Assembly (NCBI GenBank): GCA_958296165.1
Contig: OY282447.1
Coordinates: 248,001-312,000 of the forward strand
Source of the DNA: an uncultured Pseudomonadales bacterium
GTDB taxonomy: Bacteria > Pseudomonadota > Gammaproteobacteria > Pseudomonadales > Azotimanducaceae
Direction of reading: 5' to 3'
DNA: 64,000 bases
This document shows, one piece after another, positions 1 through 19,021 of the stretch. Position 1 is the first letter of the stretch. Each line of letters begins with the position of its first letter. Below the pieces are notes generated by a model. It had not been told where the DNA came from, ran no database searches, and saw only the letters and a program-made list of their open reading frames with translations. The position numbers were made by a program, and so were the translations under genes.

Positions 1-1023
1 GCCGATTTGCCCGACCTTCGAGTTGGCAACGGCGTTTGCCAACTCGAACACGGCGCATTCGGGCGACCGCAGCGCCAATCGATCCGCCAAGTCCAAGATG
101 GGATTGTCGGACTCCACGCGCGCCTTCAGGATGCAGCCGTCGAATCCGCCGTTCTCCGCCCGTCGGTCGAATTCGCGCAAAGACCCTTGGAACTGTTTGA
201 GCGGGCGGCCACTTGGCAACTCGAATGGTTCCACATGGACATCGTCGCCCAGAGTCACGATCACCGCCTGCTTGACCTGCTCACTCTCGCCGAAGTCCAG
301 CGGTATGAGCGAACCGGCGTAGCGGCCCGTGGCTATTCCCCCAGGCAGGAGCTGCGGATCGTGGATGTGGCCGAAGGCGCAATACAACGCCTGCTGCAAG
401 CCCTGCACGTGAGTCGCGTAGTCTTCGCCAACGGTGATACGGCGTTCAGACTTGCCAGGTCTGGCACCGTCCACATGGAGATGGGCCGCGTACAGCACGA
501 CGCCCCGCTCGCCCACACTCAGGCTCGCCTTGTCCAAGAAACGGTCGTTGATGATGCGCACCCCATCGGCATAGACGCCTTGGAACTTCTCCACATCGTC
601 GCTGGCAAAGTCGGCGATGGCGCTTGGCGGAATGAACGGCACACACACCACCGCCACTCGCACATTTGCGATGTTTGGAAACTCCACGGGCCCTGGTTGG
701 GTAAGGAACCAGAGGCGTCTAGGTGCCGTTGCGCCGGCCAACTGATCGAGCACACGGAACAAGGCTGGCGAGTCATGGTTGCCGCAGAGGACAACCGTAG
801 GTGCCAGTGCCGCAAGCCTCTGCAGCGCTGTGATGCCGAGGCCGAGCGAGGCATACGGCGGCCTAGAAGCATCGAAGAGGTCGCCCGTGTGCAGGATGAG
901 GTCCGGCCGTTCAGACTCTGCGACCTCCAGCAGGCCCCGCAACGCCACCTCGTGGTCCGGTTGCCGATCGTGTCGCCCAAGCCGTGCGCCAAGGTGCCAA
1001 TCCGAGGTGTGCAGGAGTTTCAA
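1..1023 (-). CDS. SbcD/Mre11-like DNA exonuclease (3' end outside window)
   Basis: Calcineurin-like metallophosphoesterase of the SbcD/Mre11 family, expected to trim DNA ends in a two-metal site. The N-terminus reads LKLLHTSDWHLGARLG (phosphoesterase motif I, D-x-H), followed by LILHTGDLFD (motif II) and VVLCGNHDS (motif III, GNHD). Later motifs YAAHLHVDG and CAFGHIHDP supply the remaining metal-binding histidines. The start is a TTG whose reverse-complement context has GGAGG 7 nt upstream; it overlaps the TGA of the HerA-like gene by 2 bases (TTGA), so the two are probably translationally coupled. About 341 codons are present before the left edge; the family is usually near 400. A Rad50/SbcC-like ATPase might follow beyond the window, but that cannot be seen. 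Confidence 0.88.
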   Translation of the reverse strand, partial: MKLLHTSDWHLGARLGRHDRQPDHEVALRGLLEVAESERPDLILHTGDLFDASRPPYASLGLGITALQRLAALAPTVVLCGNHDSPALFRVLDQLAGATAPRRLWFLTQPGPVEFPNIANVRVAVVCVPFIPPSAIADFASDDVEKFQGVYADGVRIINDRFLDKASLSVGERGVVLYAAHLHVDGARPGKSERRITVGEDYATHVQGLQQALYCAFGHIHDPQLLPGGIATGRYAGSLIPLDFGESEQVKQAVIVTLGDDVHVEPFELPSGRPLKQFQGSLREFDRRAENGGFDGCILKARVESDNPILDLADRLALRSPECAVFELANAVANSKVGQIG

Positions 1024-2837
1024 AGTTCTACCTCCGGGCCTGCGAACGCTGCCATGTTACGGCCGATCTCATCGACTCGCGCCGCGTTCGCGGCGTCGTC
1101 CTTCGCGGCCTCGCCGGGATTGGTGGCGAACGGCGGAAAAGGGAACCGTATCGGGATAGGCTCCGGCACCACTGGCTGAGACACCACCATCGTGCCGGGC
1201 ATGAAACGGGTTGCCCTTTCGCGCAACGCCGGCGTGAGAAAGCGGTAGGCGTCGGCCTCGCTAGCGTCCAAGCGGCCGGCCACCTTGAGCGAAGCGTTCC
1301 TCGGCAATGCTGGCGCCACCGCGGAGGCGGCCTGTTGGGCACCGATCAGCAAGACGCCTAGCGACCGGCCTCGTTCGGCGATGTCCACTAGCAACTCCTT
1401 GAGTGGTGAGAAGCCTTGGGCAGGCGCGTATTTGTTCAACTCGTCGAGTACCACGAAGCGCAACGGCTCGCGTCCCGTCCCTTGCTTCTCGTTCCAGACC
1501 CGATCGAGCAGCGCCCCAACGACGAAGCGTTGCGCATCTTCGTGCAGCCTGGAAATATCCACCACATGCACCTTCGCGTTCTCGGTAGACACCGGGGACA
1601 ATCCGATGCCGATCACCGCGCCAAGATGGCGGCGTAGCCGTAGCAGCCGACGCAGAAATGCTTGGCGAGTACCGAGCGTTGTCCGTCCGAACCATAGGTT
1701 TTGTAGGCGTTCGTCTTCGGCAGTGGCCAAGCCATCCAAGAATCCCACGAGATCGCCGAAATCGCGCACGACATGGCCGGCGCCGGCCGCTGCCTGCTCT
1801 GGTTCGCGCCCCGCCAAGCGATCCGGGTCGAACGATGTGTTAGGCGCTGTCGTGTTGGCAACCACCACAGCCCCGCTCTTGTCGTCTGCGAGACGACGAA
1901 AGTGCCGTAGTAGCTGTATCCGAACCTGCTGCTCCACGAACCCTACCTGCGTAGTTCTGTCGTCTTGAGATGTGAAGCAGAATTGCAGGAGCTGCTGGCG
2001 GATGAATTGCTCCGGCGTCCAACCGTAGGCGTGTACCTCCTTCATCTCCCGCGAGCGAACATCAGCCACATGGCCAGCATCTGATCGGCGCGGCGCATAC
2101 AGCCGAACCGACTTGAACGGCCCTGGGTTGTCCACGCCAAGCACATTCCACTTTTTGCGTTCATCGTCTCTGTCGGCGAACACCGCGTTGGCACGATCCA
2201 AGTGCAGCAAGTCCTCGCCTTTGGTGTTGAATACGAAAGCGCGTGCGTTCTCTCGGTTCGCACGGCCGCCAAGCAAGTTCATGCCGCGCTCGGTTTCGAG
2301 TAGCTGATACAGCAGAAAGAGCGCGTAGGACGTCTTCGTGCCAACGCCGGAGATGCCGGAGATCGAAACATGCGCCCCGGCCCGGCCGTCCACAAACCGC
2401 ATGTCCGCGTAGACTGGCTCGCCGCCGAGGTCCAGTCCGATGGGCAGCTTGCCGTGGCTCATTTCGTCCTCGAACAAGGCGAGCTCACGATGGTGACCAC
2501 TTGCCCGCAACACCGGCGCACCAGCTTGGGGTGCGACGAACACCTCCGGCGCGACACGCAGCACGCGGGCTTGTGCACGACGCACATGCTCCGCCGGCAA
2601 GGTGCTGTCGACTACGCGAGCTGTGTCCGATGGAAAGTCGGCACCCTCGAATCGCGAACTCAGTTCCGTCACGATGCTATAGTGCGTAAGCTCTCGGCCA
2701 TCGGCGAGAACGGTCGTGACAGACAGCAGTTCGTCGAGCTGGACGACCGCATTCTCCTCAAGCACGACGTAGAAGGTCCGGGAGCTACTCTCTGTAGATC
2801 CATCCACCAACCCGACATGAGATCGCGCCAGCGTCAT
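1020..2837 (-). CDS. HerA-like (DUF87) DNA translocase/helicase ATPase
   Basis: A 605-residue P-loop ATPase of the HerA/FtsK superclass, expected to form a ring that pumps DNA and partners with NurA nucleases. The P-loop is a variant, GISGVGTKTS at residues 161-170, with one extra residue between the last Gly and the Lys. Walker B is FVVLDELNKYAP near residue 460, followed by the sensor-like segment GVLLIGAQQA. The start at 2837 was preferred over longer in-frame options because its ATG overlaps the TGA of the upstream NurA-like gene (ATGA). Its own TGA overlaps the TTG of the SbcD-like gene. The tight overlaps and the family logic (NurA-HerA-Mre11) point to a DNA-end resection or defence complex. 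Confidence 0.87.
   Translation of the reverse strand: MTLARSHVGLVDGSTESSSRTFYVVLEENAVVQLDELLSVTTVLADGRELTHYSIVTELSSRFEGADFPSDTARVVDSTLPAEHVRRAQARVLRVAPEVFVAPQAGAPVLRASGHHRELALFEDEMSHGKLPIGLDLGGEPVYADMRFVDGRAGAHVSISGISGVGTKTSYALFLLYQLLETERGMNLLGGRANRENARAFVFNTKGEDLLHLDRANAVFADRDDERKKWNVLGVDNPGPFKSVRLYAPRRSDAGHVADVRSREMKEVHAYGWTPEQFIRQQLLQFCFTSQDDRTTQVGFVEQQVRIQLLRHFRRLADDKSGAVVVANTTAPNTSFDPDRLAGREPEQAAAGAGHVVRDFGDLVGFLDGLATAEDERLQNLWFGRTTLGTRQAFLRRLLRLRRHLGAVIGIGLSPVSTENAKVHVVDISRLHEDAQRFVVGALLDRVWNEKQGTGREPLRFVVLDELNKYAPAQGFSPLKELLVDIAERGRSLGVLLIGAQQAASAVAPALPRNASLKVAGRLDASEADAYRFLTPALRERATRFMPGTMVVSQPVVPEPIPIRFPFPPFATNPGEAAKDDAANAARVDEIGRNMAAFAGPEVEL
1031..1035 (-). promoter_or_regulatory. 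Ribosome binding site deciding a TTG start
   Basis: GGAGG on the minus strand, 7 nt upstream of the TTG at 1023-1021, inside the 3' end of the HerA-like gene. It supports the rare TTG start of the SbcD-like gene over any downstream ATG. Confidence 0.7.
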
Positions 2838-3859
2838 AGCTTTGCCTCGTTCCGCCTCATCACTGCCTCCCGAACGGCTCGGAGCGCCAACTGGGGATTG
2901 CCTTGAACACGATGTAGATGGCGTTCCAAGCCCGATATGGGCGTCAAGTTTACGGGTGCCCGCGGATCTCGATGGGCAGCGGATGCAAAAGCTGGCAGGC
3001 AGCTCGCCATGCGGTCGGCCACTTGCGATGCGATTTCTCGACCCACGCCCGCTGCCATTTCCACACGGGCAATGGCAGCCCAAGGCGTTGTCCAGGGCCC
3101 AACGTCGCCGACCCGTAGGTAGCAGGCGTAGAAATCATCGCCCAATGCGAACAGCCCGGTACGTTCGCCTACGCCCAGGCCCGGAACCGCCGCCCAATCT
3201 TCGGCCTGCAACAGGCGCCTGTAGTGGGTCTTCACATAGCCCACGACCGGTTGACCGCGGGCTTGGCGAATACTGTGCAACGGGCCATCGACGACAGCGA
3301 ACCACTCATCGCCACAAAGCGTTTCTGCGATTCGTCCCTCGGCATCGCGCATGCGGCGCTGCAGGTACAAGTGTGCGGCTTGTGGCTCTTGGCTATCCAC
3401 TGCGTGCGGTTCCCAACGCCAGCCGTTCGCGTTGTCGGGAAGGCGAACAGGTGTGCCGCCACACAATACGGTTAGGCGGCCTACCTCCACACGGTCGATC
3501 CGTGCAGGACTAGGACCGTCGATGAGCACTGCGCCAGCGGCCCAGCTTCCCGCCAAGCCTGTGTGGATGTGCCCCTGTACGTCGGTTCTCGTCAGTCGCG
3601 CCTCTGTGCGCATCGTTCCATCGACAAATGCGATGCGTGGCATCGACTGTGTGGGTTCGTTGGGGCGATAGGGATGGGCTGCAAATCCGTCATCTTCCAC
3701 CCACTCGCATGCCAGATCGTGCTTCGACTCTTCTTCGGCGTTGTAGCCGGCACCGTAGTCGGGCCGGAACGGATCAACCCCCACATGGTCACCGACGATG
3801 CGGCCAGCCGACACCACCGCGGCCATGCCTACCGACACCCGCAGCTGTTCATCGTTCAT
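2834..3859 (-). CDS. NurA-like nuclease
   Basis: A 341-residue NurA-domain protein. Visible family features are the acidic motif IAFVDGTMRTE (Asp80), a second acidic motif FAVVDGPLH (Asp191), GYVKTHYRR, and the C-terminal stretch VNLTPISGLERHLHR followed by a Gly-rich turn, typical of NurA. NurA enzymes are RNase H-fold 5'-3' nucleases that act with HerA. The gene is first in a three-gene overlapping set (NurA-HerA-SbcD), all on the minus strand. The start at 3859 has a G-rich stretch about 6 nt upstream but no perfect Shine-Dalgarno. Function in bacteria is less studied than in archaea, so repair versus phage defence cannot be decided from sequence. Confidence 0.85.
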   Translation of the reverse strand: MNDEQLRVSVGMAAVVSAGRIVGDHVGVDPFRPDYGAGYNAEEESKHDLACEWVEDDGFAAHPYRPNEPTQSMPRIAFVDGTMRTEARLTRTDVQGHIHTGLAGSWAAGAVLIDGPSPARIDRVEVGRLTVLCGGTPVRLPDNANGWRWEPHAVDSQEPQAAHLYLQRRMRDAEGRIAETLCGDEWFAVVDGPLHSIRQARGQPVVGYVKTHYRRLLQAEDWAAVPGLGVGERTGLFALGDDFYACYLRVGDVGPWTTPWAAIARVEMAAGVGREIASQVADRMASCLPAFASAAHRDPRAPVNLTPISGLERHLHRVQGNPQLALRAVREAVMRRNEAKL

Positions 3860-4034
3860 CGCCCCGTCATTCGACAGACGGGCAGCTTAGCCATACGCGG
3901 ACGCCGCCGCCAACGGCCTTCGGGTCGCGATTCGCACGGTACGACGCAACAGCAAGCGCGATTCAGGCGTACAATTCCTCCGTTCGCGCAGTGCTTGCGA
4001 GCACTGCGGCGCACGCAGCCCTTGGAGGGTCGCC

Positions 4035-4320
4035 ATGCACCTCCCCAACCAACAGCCATCCTAAATCTGGCGCCCGCTTACGGGCGTGCCCGATGGCGCT
4101 CACGGCTGGCTGGTGTCCGGCTACGCCGAGCTCAGGGACGAGTGGGCGTCTATCCGCGCCAGGCTGAAAGACCGCGACGAACCTCGCGCCTTCCTCGACA
4201 AGTGGCTGGAGGAGCGCGGTCGGGCGTTCGCCATCGAAACCGGCCAGATCGAGGGCCTCTACACGCTCAAGGCGGGCATCACCGAGCGACTCATTGCCGA
4301 GGGCCTCGCCGGCGTGGGCA
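4035..4320 (+). pseudogene. fic-family gene, 5' remnant only
   Basis: Reading on the plus strand from GTG 4086, the product contains the Fic-family N-terminal signature WLEERGRAFAIETGQIEGLY followed by TLKAGITERLIAEG, after which homology stops near 4317. An in-frame ATG at 4035 has a good GGAGGG site just upstream, but an in-frame TAA at 4062 separates it from the WRPL segment that usually opens Fic proteins. The catalytic HPFxxGNGR half is absent. So the gene carries a nonsense codon and is cut off where the convergent ClpP/ATPase pseudogene ends. Either an element boundary or a deletion lies at about 4320. Fic proteins AMPylate targets, often as toxins; this remnant cannot. Confidence 0.7.
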
Positions 4321-6634
4321 TAGAGTTGTCGTGCGCCTTCGAGGTCGAGGAAAGCGAGTCGCTCCACGGCACGGACGCGCCTCCCGGTCGTGGTCGATGG
4401 CGACCGTGTAGCGCATGTCCCCTTCGTCCGTCGACGCTGCGATCTCGAAGAACATGGTCCCGCCGCAGTCCGGGCGCATCGGCGAAAGCACCGGAAGTTG
4501 GCGATGCCGAGTTTCCGATCGGGCCTCTGCCCGTGGCTTCGCGGGCAGAGGTCCCGGACGTGCCGCTGCGCCGTGCCGTCGGTCGAGCGGAAGAACAGCT
4601 TCGTGGCCGTGTTCGCGAGCAGCATCTCTACCGCGTGCTCGCCGCCGTGGCCGAACTCGCCGAGCGCGTGGCGCAGGCTGCTGCACGACTGCGTGGCGAG
4701 CACGCAGAACGCCCCGAAGGAGCGGCAGGCGTCCATGAAGCTCTGCTCGCCGTGCGCCGCGTCGCAGGTCACGAAGCGGTGCGCCTCGTCGGCGACATAG
4801 GCCGCGAGCGGCATGCCGTGGCCGGCGAGCGAGCGCCGCTCGCTGCCGAGGATGGCCTCGAAGTACGCGGCCTTCAACGCCTTCGCGATGAGGATGTCGT
4901 GCGCCGCCCCCAGGCTCGGCTGGTAGAGATGCACCGCGCGGCCGTCCGTCGCGTCCACGCTGCGGTCGAACGCCACGGACGCGGCACCGCCGCCCGCCAG
5001 GGCCGCCTTCAGGCCGGGCTCGCATCCGAAGTAGAGCGTGCGCGCAGGCGTTTCGGCGGCGAAGTCGGCGAACGCCTGCCGCGCCATCGAATGGACGCCC
5101 ATGAAGTGCGGCCCTTTGCTGTGCGCGGCAAGCTGGCGCCATTGCCGGACGTCGTCGGCGAGGGTCCGAATCTCGCTGTCCGCCGCCTCGAAGCGCCTCA
5201 CCAGCAGCGCGCCGAACGTCGGGCAGCGGTCCGGCCCGAAGAACTGGGCCAGGGCGAGCACGTTGGGACCGGCGCGCCCGTCGCCGCCGTCCGCCGCCAG
5301 CCCCGCCAGCCGCCGGAAGCCGGCGAGTTCGCGCGCGAAGTCCCGATGGACGGCGTCGTCGACCGCCGGCGCGGGCCGTTCGTCGCGGAACAGCGCCAGC
5401 GTCGTCGCCACGGCGGTGAGCGCGAGCTTGGCCCCCTCCACTTCCCAATAGGGGTCCCGCCCCTTCGCCGGCGTTCCGTTCAGCGTCTGCGCCGGACTCG
5501 CCGGCGCGAGGCTCGCCGAGCGGAGCAGTATCTTGCGCGCCGCCGTCCTCGCGCGGCCGGCGGCCAGGTCCGCTTCGAGCGACCACTCCGGCGACGCCAT
5601 CACGTCGATGATCTGCCGGACGCCGTCGCGCCGGCCCGGCTCGAACACGCGCAGATCGGCGCCCGCCAGATCGGCCACCGCGTCCCGGATCTCCCGCTTG
5701 GGGTCGATCAGCAGCGCGCATCCCACGCGGTTGCCCGGATCGCACGCCGCCGCGACGGCCGGCAGGATGGCCGACGCCGTCTTGCCCGATCCGGGTTCGC
5801 CGAGCACGAGCACGTGCCGGCACAGCGCGTCGCGGGCGACTTCGCCGGACGGAAACAGGGCGCTCCACTGCGGCACCCGGAACGCGTCCTTCGGCCGTTC
5901 CGGCGCGCCGCCGCCGCGTCCGTCGGCGATGCCGTCGATCAGCCGGAGCGCCAGCGCCAGCGCCGCCGAGATCGTCTGGTCCAGCCGCAGCAGGCCCGCG
6001 TACAGCGCGGCGAAGCGCCCGCGCGGCCCTTCCGCGCACCACGCCACCAGCGCGCGCAGCCGCGCCAGCGCCGCGTCGCCCGGCCCGTCCGTTTCCGGCG
6101 CGTCCCGCCCCGGCCAGTCGACGCCGCGCGCCAGCCGCGCCGCCGCCAGCCGGTCCTCGACCGTGATCCCGTCCGCGGCGAACTCCCGCGCCGGCGCCTC
6201 CAGCGCGCGGGCCGCGAGGTCCGACAGAACGGCGGCGTCGACCCGGCCCATCCAGCCGGCCTGGTACGCCGCCACCTCGGCCGTCAACGACTGCTGCTCC
6301 GATATCCGCACGCCGTGGTAGTGCAGGCGGGCGTTGCGCCTGGCCTCGCGCCGGTCGCCGAGCGACAGGATCACCGCCGCCGCGCTGCCGACGCCGGTCA
6401 GGCCGCGCGTCACGATCCGAAGGCCGCTCCGGCGCAGCCCCTCGGCGGCGTCGAGCCAGTAGCTCAGGCCGTCTCCGATCCGCCGGGCGACGCGATCTCC
6501 AGATGGACGCCGTCGTAGAAGCAGTCGCCGCGCAGGTGGCGCATCACGTCCGCCAGCTCGATCACGGCTGCGTCGGTGATCTCGGACACCAGCGAAACCA
6601 CCGCGGTGTCGCTCTCGTAGTTCACACTTATCAT
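4291..6634 (-). pseudogene. ClpP-like peptidase fused to VirD4/TraG-like conjugation ATPase, frameshifted
   Basis: Start is ATG 6634 with AAGGAG 8 nt upstream. The first 56 codons (MISVNYESDTAVV...IASPGG) match ClpP-like peptidases and then hit a stop at 6464. One frame over, the text continues without a break (GLSYWLDAAEGLRRSG, then VGSAAAVILSLGDRREA with the putative catalytic Ser, then LHYHG with the putative His) and runs directly into a large ATPase. Walker A is GEPGSGKTAS (about 5772-5800) and Walker B is AAYVADEAHRFV (about 4790-4825), with ATQS as in coupling proteins. A second frameshift near 4540 affects the C-terminus. Rejoined, it would be roughly 780 residues. It is probably a conjugation-type DNA pump with an attached Clp-like domain, now inactive unless the shifts are sequencing errors. 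Confidence 0.72.
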
Positions 6635-7660: not shown

Positions 7661-7873
7661 CGAAGTCCTCCCGCGACCGGGGACGGCCCGCGCGCAAGCG
7701 CCGGGGCGGCCTGCGAACTGGCCGAGCCGCCGGCGCTCCATGCGGCCGTCGGCGAGCACCGCGTAGCACTCGCCCGGCCGCAGCGTCGAGAGCGGCCGCA
7801 CCTGCCGTCGCTGCGCCGCTCGCGAGTCGGGCACGCTGCGAGGCTCTGCGAATTTGGGCCGGAGACCGACCTT
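7661..7873 (-). pseudogene. 3' remnant of a conjugation-ATPase-like gene (left copy)
   Basis: The minus frame encodes VRPLSTLRPGECYAVLADGR followed by MERRRL, resembling the tail of VirD4/TraG-like proteins, where a proline, LRPGE and a short beta-hairpin close the ATPase. No upstream ATPase core exists. A closely similar stretch occurs on the same strand at 14177-14275, on the other side of the kinase-helicase/PLD operon, and the two also match at DNA level. The parent family is inferred from this short tail only. Confidence 0.4.
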
Positions 7874-8200: not shown

Positions 8201-8248
8201 CTGCTTTGCGTGGCCGTATACGCTCCCTCAATCCCGGCAAGCTAGTTG

Positions 8249-11200
8249 ATGCTCCGTCCCGGCACAGAGATATTGCGCGCCAAATACCGCCTACTTCCTC
8301 CGGGCCCGATTGCACCAGACGCTGCGGCAGAAGCTTGGCTCGGCGTCGATGAAGACGACACTCAATACCTCATCAAGATCTGGCCATTCTCTGGGGACCG
8401 TCCGGATGACCTAAGCCGTGCTCTTTGGGACACAGAACTCCGCAACCTCTACCGAGTCTGCAGTTCGCCGGGCGCCGAGGACGCGATTCTCGTGCTTCGC
8501 AATGCAGGCGTTGATCTGGACAACTGCTGTTATGTGATGGTCTTGGAAGCTCCGGGTTACGAGAGCCTCGATTCGGCGATCATCCATCGTCGACAGATCC
8601 CCTGGCTCGATAGTCGCGACCCTAGACTGCGCAGTGACCTCTGGACCAGCGTTCAAAAGCTCGCTTCAGGTGTGCAGCTTCTTCACGAGCAACAGACGCT
8701 GCACCGCAACCTTCAACCGGCAGCTATCTTCTATAACGCAGAACTCGGCGCCCAGTCCATGCGCTTGGGCGGGTTCGAGTGGAGTATTCGGCTAGGCGCT
8801 CCAAGCAACCAGGGACGACCGACGCCGAACTGGTCATCTCCGCCAGAGTTTTTCGACGGCACCGCGTTTGGCTACCGACCCGACACTGACTGGTTTGGCT
8901 TCGGAATGCTTGTCGTCCGCTTACTTGTCAACGTCGAGGCGGACGCCAACGCAGGGCCTCTTCACCGTTACGAAAAGATTCTGCAACGCCTTGGCCGGTC
9001 AATCCCAAACCTATCTGATCTAGAGCGGGAGTTCTTGCTGCGACTAATCTCGCGCAATCCACTGGAGCGCCTAGACCGTGGCGGAGAAATCGTCGCTGGC
9101 ATCCGCGAAGTCCTCCGAGGATTGCGGCAAGTCTCGCCGTCTGGCCACGAGCAAAGGGGGGCACTTACGGTAGTCATTCATCCACCGTCGTCCGACAAGC
9201 TACTTGAGCGCGCTCAAGAATCTGGATTCATGCCAGATCCAGACGAGCCAAACCTGTCGTTCAACCCGAACAACTTGCTGCACGTCGCTAGGCTAACGAA
9301 CTTTATTCGGCGCGATCTCGACCAACCGCAACTCTACGCTGTTCCGGGAGCCCATTTCTACTTACTCGTCGGTTCGCGATTGACCTTAAAGCTTACCCAG
9401 TTCGAATACACTGATCGAGCGACCAATGAGCGCGTTCGAAATTGGAATCTTGCATTCTGCCCTGATGTCGCTGAACTGCGCTGGAATGCCGGTGGCTCCG
9501 CCTGTGTCCAGCTCCCACTTGGCAACGTGGTTGTCCGCACGAAACAGGACGCGCTAGGTCTGCGGCACATTCGCCAAAATGCACGTGATTGGGAGCCTTA
9601 CTTACCAACGATTGACGAAGCGGTCGCTCTCCGTGCGAATCTCGCACGATTTCACGATTTCATCCGATGCACAAATCAGTTGGAGCTACTGATCCGTGAC
9701 TCGGAGATATTCCGCTATCGTGTTCTCAAAAGCGATCCTGAGGATCGCCTCGAAAAGCTCGTGGTCGAAGAGGTATCGAGAGAACGTCAAGCAGCTCCGT
9801 TCTATCGAATGGAGGGTGGCATGACGGAGTATCTCCTGCGGGAATTCGAGTCACGGAAGCCTGACTGCGACCTAGTTGTCCTATCGGGCACGGACCAAGA
9901 TGGGCTCATGATAGGGTCCAAGCCCAAAGCCGAGTGCTGGCGCATATCGAAGATTGACACACAAGAGCGCCAAATCCACCTTCAGCGCGTTACCACTCGT
10001 CGGCCTCTGCACGGACCAGCGGCTGAGGGCACGATCCGGACGTGGGGGATGTTCGGCCAAGTCGCCTTGATCCGCCGGAGAAAGCGTGCCATTGATCGGG
10101 TCATATCGCACTCGTATTTGCTGCGTTCGCTCTCATCCCCCGGTCAAGTGTACATGGACACGGGAGCAATACCCCTGCCAGTGCAGTTGGACAGCGCTCT
10201 GGTGGACGAGGCAAAACAGGCAGCTATTAGGGACATCCTACGCGTCCGCCCAGTGTATGCGTTGCAGGGCCCGCCCGGAACCGGCAAGACGACACTTGTT
10301 GCCCACCTTCTTCGGCAGATATTTGGAGATGATCCAGTCGCCCAAGTCTTGATCACGGCACAAGCGCACGGTGCGGTCGACGTGCTAAGGGCCAAAGTTC
10401 GTAACGAAGCGTTCAATGGCATTCCCGAGGAGGAACAACCCTTGGCCGTGCGTTTGGGGCTCCCCGATCCGGAAGCAGTCGGCCCTATAGAAGGGTCGGT
10501 AGAAGAGGTCAGCCTTCGCGTTCTGGAGCGTGCGAAATCTCGTCTTCAACTGCGCGCAGCCAGAACCCCATTGCAAGACGATTGGCTAGATACCGTCACT
10601 CGGATGGAAGCCGCACTTCGACGCTGGAGACCCGACAGATCGGCACCCGATTTCTGCGAGGTCGTCAAGCGCGGGGCCAGTATCACCTACTGTACTACCA
10701 GTTCGGGCGACCTAGAAGTCCTCGCTGACGCCACGCACACGTTCGACTGGGCCATAGTCGAGGAAGCGGGCAAAGCCCATGGTTTTGACCTGGCACTGCC
10801 GCTGCAAGCAGGACACCGTTGGCTACTCATTGGAGACCACAAGCAGCTGCCGCCATACCGTTTCCGAGACTACCGCGAAGGCTTGGATCGTCTCGGTCAA
10901 GCGGTCGACGCGCTCGAGAGACTACCAGATCGGGCGGGAAGGTTGTTGGACACCGAGTGGATTCGATCATGGCGGGACCGAGAACAAGCGGAAAAGGACT
11001 CGTTTAAGGATTACGCACTCCATTGGCTCAACTCGTTCGAACGAATCTTCGAGTCTTGCAGCGTTGCCTCGGGTTCGCAGAGGTACACGGCGCCTCACGT
11101 CGATGACGCCGCCGCAGCAGGTGTACTTTCTCATCAGCATAGGATGCATCCGGTAATCGGCGATCTGATCTCGTCAGCGTATTATGAGGACAAACTCGTC

Positions 11201-11938
11201 AACCAAACGTTAGGTGGTCGGGATCGACCGTTACCGCGCGTCCAACATCCGTTTCATCTTCCAGAGGGGATCTCTGGAAAGGCCATCGTATGGCTTGATC
11301 TGCCGCGGGCAGTACACGGGGTCCAGTACGCGGAGGTTGGGCCTTCGAAGGGCCAACCCCGCTACACCAATCCTATGGAAGTCAAAGCACTCTCGGCCCT
11401 TCTTGAGTGCCTCGACTGCCCTCCGGACCACGACCTCCGAGACTCCGCTCTGCTGACCTTGGCCGTTCTTTCGCCCTACAACCAGCAAGTTGCCCTAATA
11501 AACCGAACGATACAGACGACGACGATCCACTCGATTGGCCTGCAGCCCAAGCAGGCACTGCGAAGCGGCAATGACGCTGATGATCCCCAAGGGCCCGGGC
11601 GCGTAGCCCACACCGTGGATTCCTTTCAGGGGAACCAAGCAGACATCATCGCGGTCAGCTTGGTGCGCAACAACACATTGCCTACTGGAGAAGGCATTGG
11701 GTTCCTCGGGGAAGCGCCACGGATCAATGTCCTGCTCTCCCGGGCGGAACGGCTATTAATTCTTGTGGGAAGCTGGGAGTTTTTCGAGTATCAGCTGGCC
11801 GCAGTCGCACCAGATGATCGCCACCACCCGCTGTGGCACTGGAAAAGAGTGTTGTCCACTCTTGACGAATGGTTTGAGTCCGGTCTCGCGCTACGAATCG
11901 ACTCAAGAAAGCTGTCTTCGTCGGTAACCCTGCCGTGA
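8249..11938 (+). CDS. mkoA: Pseudokinase-SF1 helicase fusion (Mokosh type I MkoA-like)
   Basis: A 1,229-residue fusion. Residues 1-300 are a Ser/Thr kinase-like fold: a beta-3 Lys in YLIKIW (about 44), but HRNLQP (about 152) in place of HRDxKxxN and LGGFEW in place of DFG, so catalysis is doubtful. The C-terminal half is a COG1112-type superfamily 1 helicase: Walker A GPPGTGKT (about 674), motif II VEEAGKA (about 837), motif III GDHKQLPP, SHQHRMHP, motif V DSFQGNQAD, and motif VI VLLSRAERL. A PLD nuclease gene overlaps its stop (GTGA). Kinase-helicase plus PLD nuclease is the published layout of type I Mokosh anti-phage defence. ATG 8249 was chosen over the TTG just before it; neither has a clear ribosome site. 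Confidence 0.85.
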   Translation: MLRPGTEILRAKYRLLPPGPIAPDAAAEAWLGVDEDDTQYLIKIWPFSGDRPDDLSRALWDTELRNLYRVCSSPGAEDAILVLRNAGVDLDNCCYVMVLEAPGYESLDSAIIHRRQIPWLDSRDPRLRSDLWTSVQKLASGVQLLHEQQTLHRNLQPAAIFYNAELGAQSMRLGGFEWSIRLGAPSNQGRPTPNWSSPPEFFDGTAFGYRPDTDWFGFGMLVVRLLVNVEADANAGPLHRYEKILQRLGRSIPNLSDLEREFLLRLISRNPLERLDRGGEIVAGIREVLRGLRQVSPSGHEQRGALTVVIHPPSSDKLLERAQESGFMPDPDEPNLSFNPNNLLHVARLTNFIRRDLDQPQLYAVPGAHFYLLVGSRLTLKLTQFEYTDRATNERVRNWNLAFCPDVAELRWNAGGSACVQLPLGNVVVRTKQDALGLRHIRQNARDWEPYLPTIDEAVALRANLARFHDFIRCTNQLELLIRDSEIFRYRVLKSDPEDRLEKLVVEEVSRERQAAPFYRMEGGMTEYLLREFESRKPDCDLVVLSGTDQDGLMIGSKPKAECWRISKIDTQERQIHLQRVTTRRPLHGPAAEGTIRTWGMFGQVALIRRRKRAIDRVISHSYLLRSLSSPGQVYMDTGAIPLPVQLDSALVDEAKQAAIRDILRVRPVYALQGPPGTGKTTLVAHLLRQIFGDDPVAQVLITAQAHGAVDVLRAKVRNEAFNGIPEEEQPLAVRLGLPDPEAVGPIEGSVEEVSLRVLERAKSRLQLRAARTPLQDDWLDTVTRMEAALRRWRPDRSAPDFCEVVKRGASITYCTTSSGDLEVLADATHTFDWAIVEEAGKAHGFDLALPLQAGHRWLLIGDHKQLPPYRFRDYREGLDRLGQAVDALERLPDRAGRLLDTEWIRSWRDREQAEKDSFKDYALHWLNSFERIFESCSVASGSQRYTAPHVDDAAAAGVLSHQHRMHPVIGDLISSAYYEDKLVNQTLGGRDRPLPRVQHPFHLPEGISGKAIVWLDLPRAVHGVQYAEVGPSKGQPRYTNPMEVKALSALLECLDCPPDHDLRDSALLTLAVLSPYNQQVALINRTIQTTTIHSIGLQPKQALRSGNDADDPQGPGRVAHTVDSFQGNQADIIAVSLVRNNTLPTGEGIGFLGEAPRINVLLSRAERLLILVGSWEFFEYQLAAVAPDDRHHPLWHWKRVLSTLDEWFESGLALRIDSRKLSSSVTLP

Positions 11939-13737
11939 TTGTCCTCGTTCCCTTGAGCCGTTTTCGAGTCACGTACGAAGTCGCTGCTGGGCGGCCATTC
12001 TCCGAGTTCGAGAGCCTAATACTCAGAGCGATTCAGCAAGGTACAACGGAGGTGTCCGCACTGTTGGGTATATTCGAGGTGCATCCGCGGCTGCTCATCG
12101 AGAGCCTTGTGACCCTAACCTATGCAGGATGGGTTTCGGTTGGCGGTCCCGGGCACGACGGTTTAGTCCTTACGGCCAGCGGAACTGAAGCGGCGGCCTC
12201 AGACGAACCACCATCGACAATAGTCGTGTCGTCACGTCGGACCTCAGTCGTGATGGAGAGGGTCACTGGAGCTTTGATTCCGAATCAGGAGATCCAGTTT
12301 GCTTCTCAAAAGGATTTCGCAGACGTTTGGAACAGCACCGTGCGGCTTCCAACGGAGGTCACAGCCAATCATCTGGATGAGGGACAGGTACAGCACCTCC
12401 TTCCCCGCAATCAGAACGAATGGGTACGTTGGATCGAACCGATAGAGATGCTCACCAAAGACGCGAATTGGCTTCCAGTCGACGTGGATCTGGACAGCAA
12501 ATCGGTCTTTGGGCTGCCACAGGCGTGGCAACAGCGGCTAAAGCCTACAGTACTCAAGGAGGCGGCGTCTCGGGTCGCAGGACTGTCGGCAACGGGCAAC
12601 ACCAAAACGTCACCCGGGTGGCGCGGGCGCCAACGGGGCGGTCGTGCAAGGTCGACCAATCTCGACGAAACCGACACCACCTCGGCAGGGATATACAGCT
12701 GGCCAACTACACTCTCCAACGACGACTTCCTCTTCACCGCTGCCGAACATGAACGCTTAGCTAAGCTAGCGTTGGACGAGGCAGAAACATCAATTCTCAT
12801 CGCCTCCGCCTTTGCGTCTCCTAAGAAGCTGGACCAGCTCCGTGACAGCATCATCGGTGCGCTGCAGCGCGGGGTCGATGTCGACCTACTGTGGGGCTAT
12901 GTTGATGGCCGTGCTGGGGCTGAGCCAACCCGCGATTTGCTCCGCTGGCTGAGGCAACTGTCCTATGACGGTCGGCCGAGTTCCCTCCGCTTCAATTCTC
13001 GACCGTCTGACTCCCATGCGAAGCTGATGCTCTGGGACCGGTCTGACGGCACTGCTGCATGCGTTGGCTCATACAATTGGCTATCAGCAATGTTTGACGG
13101 TGCTGATGCCAACCTTCCACTGAACGCCACCATCAGGACTCTCGAACCTGCTATTGTTGCATCTCTAGCACGATGTGCTGCCGGCCTGTGGTCCTCAGCC
13201 ACCGATCCGCTTTCGACTGCAGGCGACCGGTGGCGTCGCATCGCATCAAGTCTCGAACAAGCTTCCTTGCACGTGGACTCGTCCTCTGCGAATGCCAATG
13301 TGCGACTCGTACTTGATCGCGACCACGAGCCATTGCTTTATGATTGGACGACGAAAGCGCAATCTAGGTTGCTTGTCGCGTCCCACAAGCTGGGTCCTAT
13401 ATCTGAGGCTCGCTTGGTCAACGCCAACCGAGCACGTCCGGGGTCGTTCGATTACAAGGTTGTTTTCGGGAGAGCCGGGAGAGATGAAACGTGGCGGGAA
13501 GGTGTAACCAAAACCGTGGTAGCGGCCAATGGTGTTGCTAGGCACGTAAAAGGCTTCCACGGCAAAGCCCTGGTGTCCGACAGATCCGCTTGTGTATCAA
13601 GCTACAACTTTCTTTCAGCGGATCCATTTGGCACGGATCAAGACGCTCGTGAGATCGGACTCGCGATTGACGGAATCATAGCCGCAGATTGGATATGGGA
13701 TCGAATCGCCGCTGCCATCACCGATCTGAAAGTGTAG
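11935..13737 (+). CDS. mkoB: PLD-family nuclease with two HKD motifs (Mokosh type I MkoB-like)
   Basis: A 600-residue protein starting with GTG, overlapping the TGA of the helicase gene by 3 bases. An N-terminal segment (FSEFESLILRAIQQG onwards) looks like a winged-helix. Two phospholipase D motifs follow: HAKLMLWD (His about 361), with GSYNWLS after it, and HGKALVSD (His about 542), with SSYNFLS after it. Both keep the H-x-K-x4-D pattern, so a complete two-half active site is likely, and nuclease activity is expected. A spacer rich in Arg/Gly (residues about 220-245) separates the domains. The pairing with a kinase-helicase matches type I Mokosh. Confidence 0.85.
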   Translation: MIVLVPLSRFRVTYEVAAGRPFSEFESLILRAIQQGTTEVSALLGIFEVHPRLLIESLVTLTYAGWVSVGGPGHDGLVLTASGTEAAASDEPPSTIVVSSRRTSVVMERVTGALIPNQEIQFASQKDFADVWNSTVRLPTEVTANHLDEGQVQHLLPRNQNEWVRWIEPIEMLTKDANWLPVDVDLDSKSVFGLPQAWQQRLKPTVLKEAASRVAGLSATGNTKTSPGWRGRQRGGRARSTNLDETDTTSAGIYSWPTTLSNDDFLFTAAEHERLAKLALDEAETSILIASAFASPKKLDQLRDSIIGALQRGVDVDLLWGYVDGRAGAEPTRDLLRWLRQLSYDGRPSSLRFNSRPSDSHAKLMLWDRSDGTAACVGSYNWLSAMFDGADANLPLNATIRTLEPAIVASLARCAAGLWSSATDPLSTAGDRWRRIASSLEQASLHVDSSSANANVRLVLDRDHEPLLYDWTTKAQSRLLVASHKLGPISEARLVNANRARPGSFDYKVVFGRAGRDETWREGVTKTVVAANGVARHVKGFHGKALVSDRSACVSSYNFLSADPFGTDQDAREIGLAIDGIIAADWIWDRIAAAITDLKV

Positions 13738-14176: not shown

Positions 14177-14275
14177 TGCAATGGCCGGCGGCGAGCACGG
14201 CGTAGCACTTGCCCGGCCGCGGCGTGGAGAGGCCGCACGTCCGCCACGCTCGGCCGGCCCGGAGTCGTGCAGGCT
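14177..14275 (-). pseudogene. 3' remnant of a conjugation-ATPase-like gene (right copy)
   Basis: The minus strand encodes LSTPRPGKCYAVLAAGH, matching the left copy near 7724-7798 (LSTLRPGECYAVLADGR) in protein and in DNA, with a one-base deletion just before it. No other part of the gene is visible. The two copies lie in the same orientation on either side of the Mokosh-like operon and next to an integrase. Confidence 0.4.
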
Positions 14276-14342: not shown

Positions 14343-15521
14343 TCACGAGATGTAGGCGGCCCATGCGTCCATCAGTTCGCGCCGCCGGGCGAACAGGTCG
14401 CTCCTCGCGTAGGCCGCTTCGGCCTGGTTCCGCACGGCGTGCGCGAGCGCCGCCTCCATCACCGCGTGCGGCGCGTCCGTGCATTCCGACGCCCAATCCC
14501 GGAAGCTGCTGCGGAAGCCGTGGGGCACGGCTTCGACGCCGCAGCCGCGCAGGAGGTCGCTGACGGCCCCGTCGGAGAGTCGGCGGCCTCGGACGCTCGG
14601 AAAGACGAGATCGGCCGCCGCGGCCGTTCGGGGAAGGTTCCGCGCCTCGGCGAGAATGGCCAGGCAGCGCGGCGACAGCGGCACCCGGTGCTCCGTCTTC
14701 GCCTTCATCCGCTCGGCCGGGATCGTCCACGCCTTCGCCTCGACGTCGATCTCGTCCCACGTCGCGCCGCGCGCCTCGCCGCTTCGGCTCGCGGTCAGCA
14801 CGATGTACTCGAACGCGAGCTTCGCGCCGGTCCACGCGTCGGACGCCGCGACCGTCGCGATCGCGCCGGCGACTTCGGCGTGCGGCAGCGCCCTGTGGCG
14901 CCGCCTCGCCCTGCCTTCGCCCTTCGGCAGCGCCTGCAGCACCGCCGCGCCGGCCGGGTCGTCGGCGCGGTGGCCGTGCGCCATGCTCCACCGCATGACC
15001 GCCGATATCCTCTGCCGGACGCGGCTCGCGGTCTCGCGCTTCGCGCCCCAGATCGGCGTCAGCACCCGCATCACGTCGGCGCTCGCGATGGCGTCGACCG
15101 GCATGTCGCCGAGCACCGGGAAGGCGTAGGCCGCGAGCGTCGACTCCCATTCCGCCCTGCTCCTGCTGGCCTTCTTCCACGCCGCGGCCTGGGCGTCGAT
15201 GACGTGCGCGGCGGCCTCCGCGAACGTGGGCGCGGACGGCCGGCGGCGGTCCGCGAAGGGGTCGCCGCCGCGCCGGGCGACTCTGCGGTTGGCGAACGCC
15301 GCGTCCCTCGCTTCGGCGAGCGTGACGAGCTCGAAGCTGCCGAGGCCCATCGCGCGCCTTCTGCCCTTCACCACGATGCGCTGCACCCAGCTCTTCGCGC
15401 CGCTCGGCTTCATCGCCAGCATCAGTCCGTGCCCGAGGCCGTCCGCCAGCCACTCCACGTGCTCGGTCTTCCCCGAGTGCGTTGCGGCCTTGGCGGCCTT
15501 CGCGGTAAGCGGTCTGCGCAT
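14343..15521 (-). CDS. P4-type tyrosine integrase
   Basis: A 392-residue site-specific recombinase. The N-terminal arm-binding DUF4102-like region (residues 1-100) has LMLAMKPSGAKSWVQRIVVK and MGLGSF. The core-binding region begins about residue 100. The catalytic domain shows the first Arg in SGEARGATWDE, HGFRSSFRDW carrying the H-x-x-R box, and AHAVRNQAEAAYAR with the second His and the nucleophilic Tyr. The start at 15521 has GGGAG about 8 nt upstream; longer frames lack this. No excisionase is visible. It lies at the end of the mosaic island, consistent with an integrated element whose other genes have decayed. The attachment site is probably upstream (15522-15753), since no tRNA gene is seen. 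Confidence 0.88.
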   Translation of the reverse strand: MRRPLTAKAAKAATHSGKTEHVEWLADGLGHGLMLAMKPSGAKSWVQRIVVKGRRRAMGLGSFELVTLAEARDAAFANRRVARRGGDPFADRRRPSAPTFAEAAAHVIDAQAAAWKKASRSRAEWESTLAAYAFPVLGDMPVDAIASADVMRVLTPIWGAKRETASRVRQRISAVMRWSMAHGHRADDPAGAAVLQALPKGEGRARRRHRALPHAEVAGAIATVAASDAWTGAKLAFEYIVLTASRSGEARGATWDEIDVEAKAWTIPAERMKAKTEHRVPLSPRCLAILAEARNLPRTAAAADLVFPSVRGRRLSDGAVSDLLRGCGVEAVPHGFRSSFRDWASECTDAPHAVMEAALAHAVRNQAEAAYARSDLFARRRELMDAWAAYIS

Positions 15522-15593
15522 TTGTGGCTCCCTTTCGAGTCGATTGGTTAAGCCACGTAATATACCAGTTTGACGCGGATGCCGGCAAGCATC

Positions 15594-15666
15594 TGCGGAC
15601 TGCTGCGGAACGAATATCATGAAAAATCAACTACTTGATGCACAAATGCGGATTCCTGCGGAACGA
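15594..15666. repeat. 20-bp direct repeat next to the integrase
   Basis: TGCGGACTGCTGCGGAACGA at 15594-15613 and TGCGGATTCCTGCGGAACGA at 15647-15666 match at 18 of 20 positions, 53 bases apart. They lie in the 230-base gap between the integrase start and the crotonase gene. Paired direct repeats next to a tyrosine integrase are candidates for arm-type binding sites or a remnant attachment site. Confidence 0.45.
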
Positions 15667-15753
15667 TGCAGACCAATGCTCGGCCGTGGACTCCTCGGCC
15701 GCCGCCACGGTCGCCAAACCGGAAGATCCGGCAGCCGCCACGGCGAGCTGACC

Positions 15754-16530
15754 TCAGCGCCCCTCGAACTTCGGCGCCCGTTTCTCCACGAAGGCGCGGA
15801 ACGCCTCCCTCGAGTCTGCGCTCCCGCCGGTGCGCGTGTGTCGCTCTGTTTCCACTTCAATGTAGTCGCGCAGCGGCATGTTCTCGGCGTTGATGAAGTT
15901 CTTCTTCATCTCGCCGATGGCCAGCGGCGCCGACAGGGAGAGGCGTTCTGCGATGGCGCGCACTTCGTCGCGAAAGGTTGCGTCCGGGAAGGTCTTCAGC
16001 ACCAGGCCGATACGTTCCGCTTCGTGGGCGTCGAACTTCTGCGACATGAAGAACAGTTCGCGCGCCTTGGTGGCGCCGACGATGCGCGGCAGCAGCCACG
16101 GCCCGGCCATGTCGCCGGAGATGGCGACGCCGAGGAAGGCCGAGTTGAAGACCGCGCGCTCGCTCGCGTAACGCAGATCGCACGCGCACGCCCAGCCGAA
16201 GCCGGCGCCGGCGCAAGCGCCGTTCACCGCCGCGATGGTCACCTTGGGCATCTCGTGCAAGAGCGTGGTGATGTGGAAGTATTCGCGCCGGTTGGGCTCT
16301 TGTTTCGCCCCGCTGGTGGATGCTTTCAAGTCCACGCCGGGGCAGAAGCCGCGCCCCGCGCCGGTAAAGAGCACCGCGCGCACGCGCTCGTCCAAGGCAA
16401 CCACGTTCAAACACTCGTACAGCTCGCGCATGAGCGTATTGGTAATGCCGTTCAAGCTGTCGGGGCGATTCAGAGTGACGGTGGCGAGGTTGTCTTCTAC
16501 CTCGTAGAGTATGGTTTCGTAACTGGCCAT
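15754..16530 (-). CDS. Enoyl-CoA hydratase/isomerase (crotonase) family protein
   Basis: A 258-residue crotonase-fold protein acting on acyl-CoA thioesters. The oxyanion-hole regions are visible as GAGRGFCPGVDLKA and NGACAGAGFGWACACDLRYA. The first catalytic Glu region reads FNSAFLGVAISGDMAGPWLL, where canonical hydratases carry acidic residues (E in the 'PE..LG..P' motif). That position appears substituted, so the reaction may be isomerase-, thioesterase- or ligase-like. The C-terminus (HTRTGGSADSREAFRAFVEK) is typical of the family. It stands alone, divergent from the MacB-like operon. ATG 16530 gives the usual length. Confidence 0.8.
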   Translation of the reverse strand: MASYETILYEVEDNLATVTLNRPDSLNGITNTLMRELYECLNVVALDERVRAVLFTGAGRGFCPGVDLKASTSGAKQEPNRREYFHITTLLHEMPKVTIAAVNGACAGAGFGWACACDLRYASERAVFNSAFLGVAISGDMAGPWLLPRIVGATKARELFFMSQKFDAHEAERIGLVLKTFPDATFRDEVRAIAERLSLSAPLAIGEMKKNFINAENMPLRDYIEVETERHTRTGGSADSREAFRAFVEKRAPKFEGR

Positions 16531-16673
16531 GAGCGCCTCGTCCTGTGGAAACGAACGTGAAGCCTACCAGCCCGTGGCCGTCGGTGCGTTCAGCAATGCA
16601 CGGGGGCGAGAGACGGCGGCAGTGGTCTGCTTCGACCATGACAAACCACCGACGGTTTGCGCCGCCGCTCGCG

Positions 16674-16679
16674 TACAAT
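16674..16679 (+). promoter_or_regulatory. Candidate -10 box for the MacB/MacA-like operon
   Basis: TACAAT, 32 bases before the ATG at 16711, in the 180-base divergent gap. No good -35 box sits at 16-18 nt upstream, so this is a weak call. Confidence 0.3.
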
Positions 16680-16710
16680 CGGTGAACGTCTCCGCAAGAT
16701 CAGGCCCGCC

Positions 16711-17511
16711 ATGGCCCAAGATGCAACCGCGCCAGCAGCGACCACGCCCGTCATCCGGGTGGGCGCCCTGTACAAGAACTACCGCATGGGCGCAGAGACC
16801 ATCCATGCGCTGAACGGCGTGGACTGCACCATCGACGAGAACGAATATGTCGCGGTGATGGGGCCGTCCGGGTCCGGCAAGTCGACGCTGATGAACATCA
16901 TCGGCTGCCTAGACAGCCCTTCTTCTGGCGAGTATTGGCTGTCCGGCGAGAACATCTCCAAGCTCGGCGACAAAGCGCTCGCGCGGGTGCGCAACCGCCG
17001 CATCGGCTTCGTCTTCCAAACCTTCAATCTGCTGCCCCGCGCCACCGCTTTGCAGAACGTGGAGGTGCCGCTGATGTACGGCGGCGTGGGTCGCAGGGAA
17101 CGCCGTGCGCGGGCGCGAGAGGCGCTCGCCCATGTGGGCCTCGCCGACCGCATGGCCCACAAGCCCAACGAACTGTCCGGCGGCCAGCGCCAGCGGGTCG
17201 CGGTGGCGCGGGCACTGGTCAACGAACCGGACATCCTGCTCGCCGACGAACCCACCGGCAACTTAGACAGCCGCACAGGACGAGACATCATGCGGCTATT
17301 CGACGCCCTGCACGATTCCGGACAAACCATCATCTTGGTCACCCACGAGCCGCACATCGCCGAACATGCCGCCCGCCACGTGCAGTTGCGCGATGGCGTG
17401 GTGACCGAGGATCACCTTACAAGACAGGCCGCAGGACAGGCCACCGCACAGGCATCCGGACACGCCTCCGGACACGCCCCCCGACAAGCCACCGGACAAG
17501 CCAATGCGTAA
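16711..17511 (+). CDS. MacB/LolD-type ABC transporter ATPase
   Basis: A 266-residue ATP-binding subunit. It shows Walker [10 protein letters not shown], a Q-loop in VFQTFNLLP, the signature [15 protein letters not shown], Walker [14 protein letters not shown] and the switch His in LVTHEP. The LNMIG/NLLPR context is that of MacB and LolD-like exporters. The last 30 residues are a repetitive tail ([16 protein letters not shown]) coded by a degenerate short tandem repeat at about 17431-17510. The gene overlaps the next by 8 bases and is first of three. ATG 16711 is preferred because homology begins right after it. Confidence 0.9.
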
Positions 17512-19021
17512 ATCCAATCAAACGCCATCGTCGTTAGCTGTGGCGCTCGCCTTCCCATGCCTGTTGGCAGTCGCCGCCTGCGACAAGGTCGAAGACTATT
17601 TCGCGGACGAACCCGCGGAAGACGAAGCGGTCGCTCTGTACCAGACCGCGTCCGTGCAGCAGCGCGACATCATCGTCGCGGTCGAGGCCGCCGGCATCAT
17701 CGAACCGGTGACCACCGTGGAGGTCAAGTCGAAGGCGTCGGGAGAAATACTCGCTTTGCCGGTGGACACCGGCGACCACGTCGAGGCAGGCACCATGCTG
17801 GCGCGCGTCGACCGGCGCGTGCTGAACAACTCGCTGCAAATGGCCAAGGCGAATCTGGAGGTCGCCAAGGCGCGCCTCACCAACGCCGAATCGTCGCTTG
17901 AACGAGTGACGCAGCTCTACGAGCAGGAGTCGCTCTCAAAGGCGGATTTCGAGCAGGCGACGCTCGAACACGCGACCGCCGGCTCGGAGGTGGTGCGTGG
18001 TGAAATCCAAGTCGAAAACGCCACCATCCAACTCGACGACAGCGACGTCATCTCGCCCATCACGGGCACCGTCATCGAACGCCTCGTAGAGCAAGGCCAA
18101 GTGATTTCGTCGCCGATGGGCGATGTCGGCGGCGGCACCTTGCTGATGAAGATGGCGGACCTGTCGCACGTCCAGGTGCGCATGCTGGTGGACGAGATCG
18201 ACATCGGCAAAGTCCAGTCCGGCGTCGGCGCCACCGTGAACGTGGCGGCCTATCCGAACAGACCGTTCGAGGGCGAAGTCACGAAGGTGGAGCCGCAAGC
18301 GGTGGCACAACAGAACGTCACCATGTTCCCGGTACTGATCGACATCGAGAATCGAGACGGCCTTCTGAGGCCCGGCATGAACGCCGAAGTCGAAGTGCTG
18401 ATCGCCGAGCGCCGCGGCGTGCGCACCATACCCAACGCTGCCTTGCGCACGCGCGGCGACATCTTCGAGGCCGCCAGCGTGCTCGGCCTCGACCGCGACG
18501 AAACGGAGCGGCTGCTGGCTGCGGCGCCGCCACCGGGCGGAACGGACAGTGCCAATCCTCGGCGCGGCGACGGCGCTCGTCGTGCCGAGGGGCCGCCGCC
18601 GACCGCTGACCGCGAGCAAATGCGCGCCATCTTCGCCAAGATGCGCAGCGGCGAATCACTGACGGACGAAGAGCAAAAGCTCGTCGCGCAGATGCGAAGC
18701 CGTATGGGAAGCGGCGGCGGACGCGGCGAGGGCCGCGGCGCCGGCGGCGCAAGACGCTCCTTGGTAGACGGCCAGTTTGGTGGCGAATACCTGGTCTTCG
18801 CGCTGCGCGGCGGCGAACCGGTGCCAATGCGCATCCGCACCGGCATCACGGATTTGGATTACACCGAGGTGGTCGCCGGCTTGGTGGAAGATGCAGAGGT
18901 GCTGATTCTGCCCAGCGCTTCGTTAGTGCGGGCGCAAGAGAGCTTTCAGCGTCGCATGAGCGGGCGCATGGGCATCCCGGGGTTGAGTCGGCAAAGCAGC
19001 GGCAGCGGACGCCGGGGCTGA
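17504..19021 (+). CDS. MacA-like periplasmic adaptor lipoprotein
   Basis: A 505-residue RND/MacA-type membrane fusion protein. The signal peptide ends in a lipobox-like LLAVAACD, so it is probably lipid-anchored. Residues about 60-110 are the first half of a lipoyl domain ([20 protein letters not shown]). A coiled-coil hairpin follows (about 115-185), then [20 protein letters not shown] and a beta-barrel. Unusual is an insertion of about 100 residues (about 340-430) rich in Pro, Gly and Arg ([16 protein letters not shown]) holding the segment [20 protein letters not shown]. The C-terminal part resumes with the membrane-proximal domain. It bridges the inner-membrane ABC pump to an outer-membrane channel not encoded here. 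Confidence 0.87.

Follow-up and report, generated by a model that had tools for sequence, protein, structure and literature searches.

The window, i.e. the whole stretch of 64,000 nucleotides analysed here, very probably carries a type I Mokosh anti-phage operon that was acquired horizontally and belongs to a kinase-dead branch; in this operon, an MLKL-like pseudokinase-helicase is paired with a nuclease of the phospholipase D (PLD) type holding two HKD motifs. Among the type I Mokosh systems sampled, all members of one branch have a non-catalytic kinase, whereas those of another branch keep it intact, and the nuclease partner changes alongside. This contrast between intact and dead kinases offers a direct handle on the role of the kinase. 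Annotation by profile only labels both branches 'MkoA', thereby masking the difference.

The operon consists of two genes on the forward strand. The first, mkoA (8249..11938, +), starts with an ATG at 8249 or a TTG at 8246 and encodes 1229 amino acids, with a pseudokinase followed by a middle region and a COG1112-type SF1 helicase (PADLOC; Pfam AAA_11 with 94.5 bits and AAA_12 with 99 bits). The second, mkoB (11935..13737, +), overlaps it by GTGA (11935-11938) and encodes 600 amino acids, with an N-terminal region containing a probable winged helix and then two PLD domains (PADLOC, Foldseek). These open reading frames coincide with the interval 8249-13737 delimited by the earlier note and, together with their motifs, agree with the layout it described, namely a fused kinase-like and SF1 helicase protein, a GTGA overlap and a PLD protein with two HKD motifs. 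The same note had assigned the operon to type I Mokosh and proposed a search against Mokosh profiles. Run with PADLOC, this search matched both proteins nearly full length and far above chance, which bears out the assignment: MkoA hits PDLC03920 with 758 bits (4.2e-228; residues 9-1215, profile positions 7-1107 of 1112) and MkoB hits PDLC03922 with 280 bits (2e-83; residues 2-590, profile positions 7-598 of 610). None of the NCBIfam models scored above cut-off for MkoA or MkoB. Pfam Pkinase stayed sub-threshold on MkoA (27.4 bits vs. a cut-off of 31.7), and PLDc_2 matches MkoB with 36 bits at residues 279-387, covering the first HKD. Judged from its sequence, the locus is a complete Mokosh type I operon.

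That helicase and PLD genes are neighbours by chance, without a role in defence, is exceedingly improbable. The defence function of the operon is predicted here from sequence, which leaves room for such a coincidence; however, both proteins match defence profiles full length, and 26 of the 28 loci of the window's branch, defined below, have a MkoB gene after MkoA. According to the available part of PMC11672841, type I Mokosh encodes the helicase and the PLD protein in separate genes and includes a Ser/Thr-kinase domain. The window has the separate genes and appears to have the kinase fold without its catalysis; a catalytically competent kinase is not found, as the HRD Asp, the catalytic Asn and the DFG Asp are absent. 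Like the type I reference (PDLC03920, PDLC03922), the window thus combines a kinase-like and COG1112-type helicase MkoA with a PLD MkoB in two genes, but it differs in the missing catalytic residues, and its best relatives are only about 30% identical. A NERD domain (PF08378) is tabulated for Mokosh type I in the available part of PMC10952713, where it is not said to occur in every system; it is absent from the Pfam matches of MkoA and MkoB up to E 0.1. Mokosh type II (MkoC) likewise joins a helicase and a PLD, but fuses them in one protein. A type II identity was rejected, since the window has two genes and its MkoC matches are weak (47.7 and 29.5 bits).

The pseudokinase domain spans approximately residues 28-295 of MkoA (8330..9133, +), based on the MkoA profile match and a weak kinase-fold model. 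The first 300 amino acids match positions 7-283 of the MkoA profile with 169 bits. The predicted folds of MkoA and MkoB are held with modest confidence; the model of MkoA residues 1-645 is a weak one, with a mean pLDDT of 52.3 and values of up to 79 in the kinase blocks, and its Foldseek comparison with the PDB returned protein kinases, with TTK as the best match (6.9e-08). Both peculiarities pointed out earlier, HRN and GGFEW, are there: HRN replaces HRD at residues 152-154 (8702..8710, +), GFE replaces DFG at residues 175-177 (8771..8779, +), and the position of the catalytic Asn holds an Ala. These residues back the pseudokinase reading proposed at that time and suggest that the kinase domain of the window is catalytically dead.

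The loss had also been called unusual, which did not survive comparison with the window's branch. This branch is represented by 28 sampled MkoA (the window, 8 genome_contigs loci, 14 plasmid loci and 5 further genome loci), and the Asp of HRD and that of DFG are both gone in 28/28. At the HRD Asp position, N is found in 12, S in 9, R in 3, A in 2, K in 1 and F in 1. The GFE columns read G in 27/28, F in 27/28 (Y in one) and E in 27/28, and the whole motif G-[FY]-E occurs in 26/28, the exceptions being L065 (GFS) and L068 (FFE). A dead kinase site is the rule in this branch, and it is conserved as dead. No variation is seen at H152, G175, E177, D214 and W215 across an alignment of 22 MkoA (the window and 21 relatives with identities to the window down to 16%), made without the deviating L065 and L068. 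This invariance, as well as the retention of the domain in 28/28, makes it very unlikely that the kinase domain is decaying following a loss of function, despite the missing catalytic residues and the variable residue at the HRD Asp position. It is also unlikely that the domain is still enzymatic via an unusual chemistry, e.g. AMP transfer or metal-independent phosphotransfer. The nucleotide pocket may remain, with K in 19, R in 8 and E in 1 of the 28 MkoA at the beta3 position (Lys or Arg in 27/28) and the alphaC Glu retained in 26/28; however, the residues that normally supply the base and the two metal ligands are missing: the HRD Asp in 28, the DFG Asp in 28 and the catalytic Asn in 27 of the 28, a single MkoA keeping the Asn. 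The preferred reading, as far as these residues indicate, is a kept but non-catalytic kinase pocket.

According to the available parts of PMC5104457 and PMC6013482, animal MLKL also has a GFE replacing the DFG, binds ATP without metal ions and is a non-catalytic kinase fold controlling an effector. The MkoA kinase profile reaches the solved MLKL in the PDB (4m68, E 1.8e-7), with 14 PDB sequences, active kinases among them, outscoring it; therefore, GFE is a shared motif and not a proof of kinship with MLKL. Effector and pathway differ between MLKL and the MkoA of the window, and the likeness in motif is probably convergent.

The SF1 helicase core (approximately residues 650-1200; 10196..11848, +) was delimited by motif alignment and by its PDB relatives. 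All helicase motifs examined are intact, with the Walker A GPPGTGKT at residue 674 and further motifs EEAGK, GDHKQLPP, QHRMHP, VDSFQG and NVLLSRAE. UPF1/Nam7 and SMUBP-2 are the nearest PDB neighbours; DNA2 was also matched, so the helicase likeness does not exclude DNA. Two MkoB of the intact-kinase branch described below (L060:6848-8614, + and L075:6908-8758, +) have a C-terminal S1 RNA-binding domain, which is a hint at an RNA target. Together with the likeness to UPF1/Nam7 and SMUBP-2 and with the available part of one paper, according to which Mokosh degrades viral transcripts (PMC11291487), these S1 domains make an RNA target the favoured one.

In MkoB, the first HKD reads HAKLMLWD (residues 361-368; 13015..13038, +) and the second HGKALVSD (residues 542-549; 13558..13581, +). 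H361 and K363 as well as H542 and K544 are invariant in alignment A2, which holds 18 MkoB, the window among them. The predicted model of MkoB has a mean pLDDT of 65.8, and its Foldseek matches are PLD enzymes with two domains (E 2.6e-12; TM just ~0.4). The winged helix was deduced from secondary-structure prediction together with a weak profile hit on AspA (E 0.0074); Pfam gave no winged-helix match on the N-terminal region. Two HxK motifs are present in 24/26 MkoB of the window's branch, the exceptions being L065 (DxK and HxR) and the truncated L048. MkoB was not countable at L046 and L068. On the Acinetobacter plasmid of L046, the MkoB region (L046:7588-10763) is split by an IS3-family transposase gene, and at L068, phmmer with four MkoB queries found no MkoB. 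The latter locus also contains a 2268-aa open frame (L068:5588-12391, -) fusing an N-terminal AAA ATPase to the pseudokinase-helicase MkoA with the FFE motif.

The same PADLOC profiles also match a second branch, in which the kinase is intact and which is represented by 14 loci (L005, L057-L062 and L069-L075). The genome locus L005 served as query and matched 588 plasmid records to some extent; in 22 of these, a single place covered 80% of the query or more, and 13 of the 22 were taken. The Lys, the HRD Asp, the Asn and the DFG Asp are all kept in 14/14, with the last motif reading DFG, DYG or DFA. Since such a branch exists, the loss of the kinase is a feature of one Mokosh branch and not of the whole family. 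The PADLOC MkoB and MkoA profiles match the 5 MkoB and 2 MkoA scanned from it. The domain order is like that of the window, and so is the 4-base gene overlap (11/13 by annotation), whereas the catalytic residues are kept and MkoB has one HKD, a degenerate HKD or none. At L005 the contig ends, leaving 13 MkoB: none has two HxK motifs, eight have one HKD, one is degenerate (L075, VxK) and four have none (L058, on an Aminobacter plasmid, as well as L059, L062 and L070). By annotation, a PP2C phosphatase gene lies directly downstream at exactly these four HKD-less loci, and Pfam PP2C_2 confirmed it for L058, the one of the four tested. The four loci form one clade with two near-copies, so they represent one event or few. 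A PP2C profile built from the four matched no further ORF of at least 120 aa in 41 loci scanned, with flanks of at most ~6 kb.

The layout of MkoB tracks the state of the kinase, a reciprocal pattern that constitutes the novelty of this analysis. In a quick tree of the helicase columns, with the kinase excluded (51 rows), the 28 and the 14 MkoA separate with SH-aLRT values of 100 and 96. A careful helicase tree (24 and 14 rows), which omits six rows (four of the 28 and two outgroups), also keeps the branches apart (100/100 and 98/93). The MkoA of the window is a long row in both trees, neither of which resolves its position inside its own branch. The kinase state switched at one deep split, for which the tree does not decide between gain and loss; as the reciprocal pattern rests on this one split, it does not amount to independent evidence. 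L007-L014 and L016 entered the analysis solely as outgroups of the trees. Among them, L008-L012 are related helicases with HGD-type kinase-like motifs in longer frames, which the tree places in neither MkoA branch. The founding description of Mokosh is reportedly that of Millman (2022, Cell Host Microbe). A literature search, with the founding Mokosh paper outside its scope, found nothing combining Mokosh with a pseudokinase, nor anything combining Mokosh, a phosphatase and a kinase.

A single-HKD PLD protein normally needs a second copy to form its site, while a two-HKD protein holds both halves. In the mechanism that we infer, including its ligand, its target, the order of events, the nuclease activity of MkoB and defence itself, the MkoA helicase would most likely engage abnormal nucleic acid arising during infection. 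The pseudokinase would most likely act as a conformational or docking module instead of an enzyme, and MkoB, as a PLD-type nuclease, would most likely cut nucleic acid. The dead-kinase branch would then have a self-sufficient two-HKD nuclease, and the live-kinase branch may regulate its nuclease, or replace it, via phosphorylation. Tentatively, and with somewhat less than even confidence, 'type I Mokosh' could represent three systems: (a) a dead MLKL-like kinase next to a two-HKD nuclease, the type found in the window, (b) a live kinase next to a nuclease with one HKD, which would need to pair to act, and (c) a live kinase whose MkoB lacks an HKD and is accompanied by a PP2C. Kinase and nuclease would then be alternative effectors on one sensing helicase. 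If so, phosphorylation itself may be the weapon in (c) and the PP2C phosphatase its antidote.

Similarity to two query proteins was the basis for choosing the relatives, most of which come from plasmid records; the proportions given above are therefore not a census. Before counting, L066 (a helicase without kinase) and L015 and L017-L031 (helicase-only or kinase-only matches) were excluded, as were the shorter duplicates L002, L004, L006, L054 and L056 (places of L063, L067, L068, L065 and L064, respectively) and the repeats L055 (same place as L066), L001 and L003 (both the window) and L092 (the L005 locus once more). A search for more intact-kinase MkoA in 347 genomes of the order of G055 returned only G055 itself. 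A first profile survey, with two candidates scored per genome, gave matches in 165/398 genomes at 1e-30; these were rejected as Mokosh, being largely kinase-only or helicase-only. Among the matches listed, those covering most of the profile occur in at least 5/398 genomes, including that of the window. Six short peptide patterns of one protein retrieved no MkoA or MkoB relatives from viral_contigs, and the phages collection gave one partial helicase match.

A tyrosine integrase of 425 aa (14343..15620, -; Pfam Phage_int_M, Arm-DNA-bind_3 and Phage_integrase) lies next to the operon and may have moved it. The kilobases of the operon have a GC content of 55-60%, compared to 59-75% in the other kilobases of 1-24000 and 70-75% at 4-8 kb and 14-15 kb of the window. 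MkoA occurs once in its own genome in a protein search, and full-length MkoA was found in 0/28 related genomes (15 of the same genus, some genomes incomplete), six of which gave short helicase matches. The low GC content, the adjacent integrase and the absence from these relatives indicate that the Mokosh operon was horizontally acquired. The earlier description of the locus as an island is partly upheld by these same three points, but not by an att pair: over 60 kb to the left of the window, no convincing repeat of the integrase-side sequence was found. On either side of the operon lies a 49-base repeat with 90% identity (7744-7792 and 14183-14231); it was rejected as an att pair because sequence of 7700-7830 has three further occurrences in the genome (95-97% over 88 bases). 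About 60 bases beside the integrase (15621-15686) have two further occurrences in the genome (81-85% identity), possibly as remnants of related integration sites. A promoter scan yielded no promoter. To the right of the integrase, an enoyl-CoA hydratase gene is kept in 12/12 same-genus relatives (query window 15621-18600). The best matches of this region in the 12 relatives start at 15753-15779, so that ~130 bases between the hydratase gene and the integrase fall outside them. Among the listed matches of the host's 16S gene in the plasmid collection, Acetobacter ranks first (81% over 95% of the length), while Methylomagnum reaches 87% over 84% and several other gammaproteobacterial records about 85-87%; a gammaproteobacterial host is thus no more than a guess from these matches. 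Elsewhere in the window, at 1020-6413 (-), two HerA/TraG/mad8-like ATPase frames (1020-3083 and 3963-6413) flank a NurA-like frame (2834-3859, below the Pfam cut-off), and this group is possibly another defence or transfer module.
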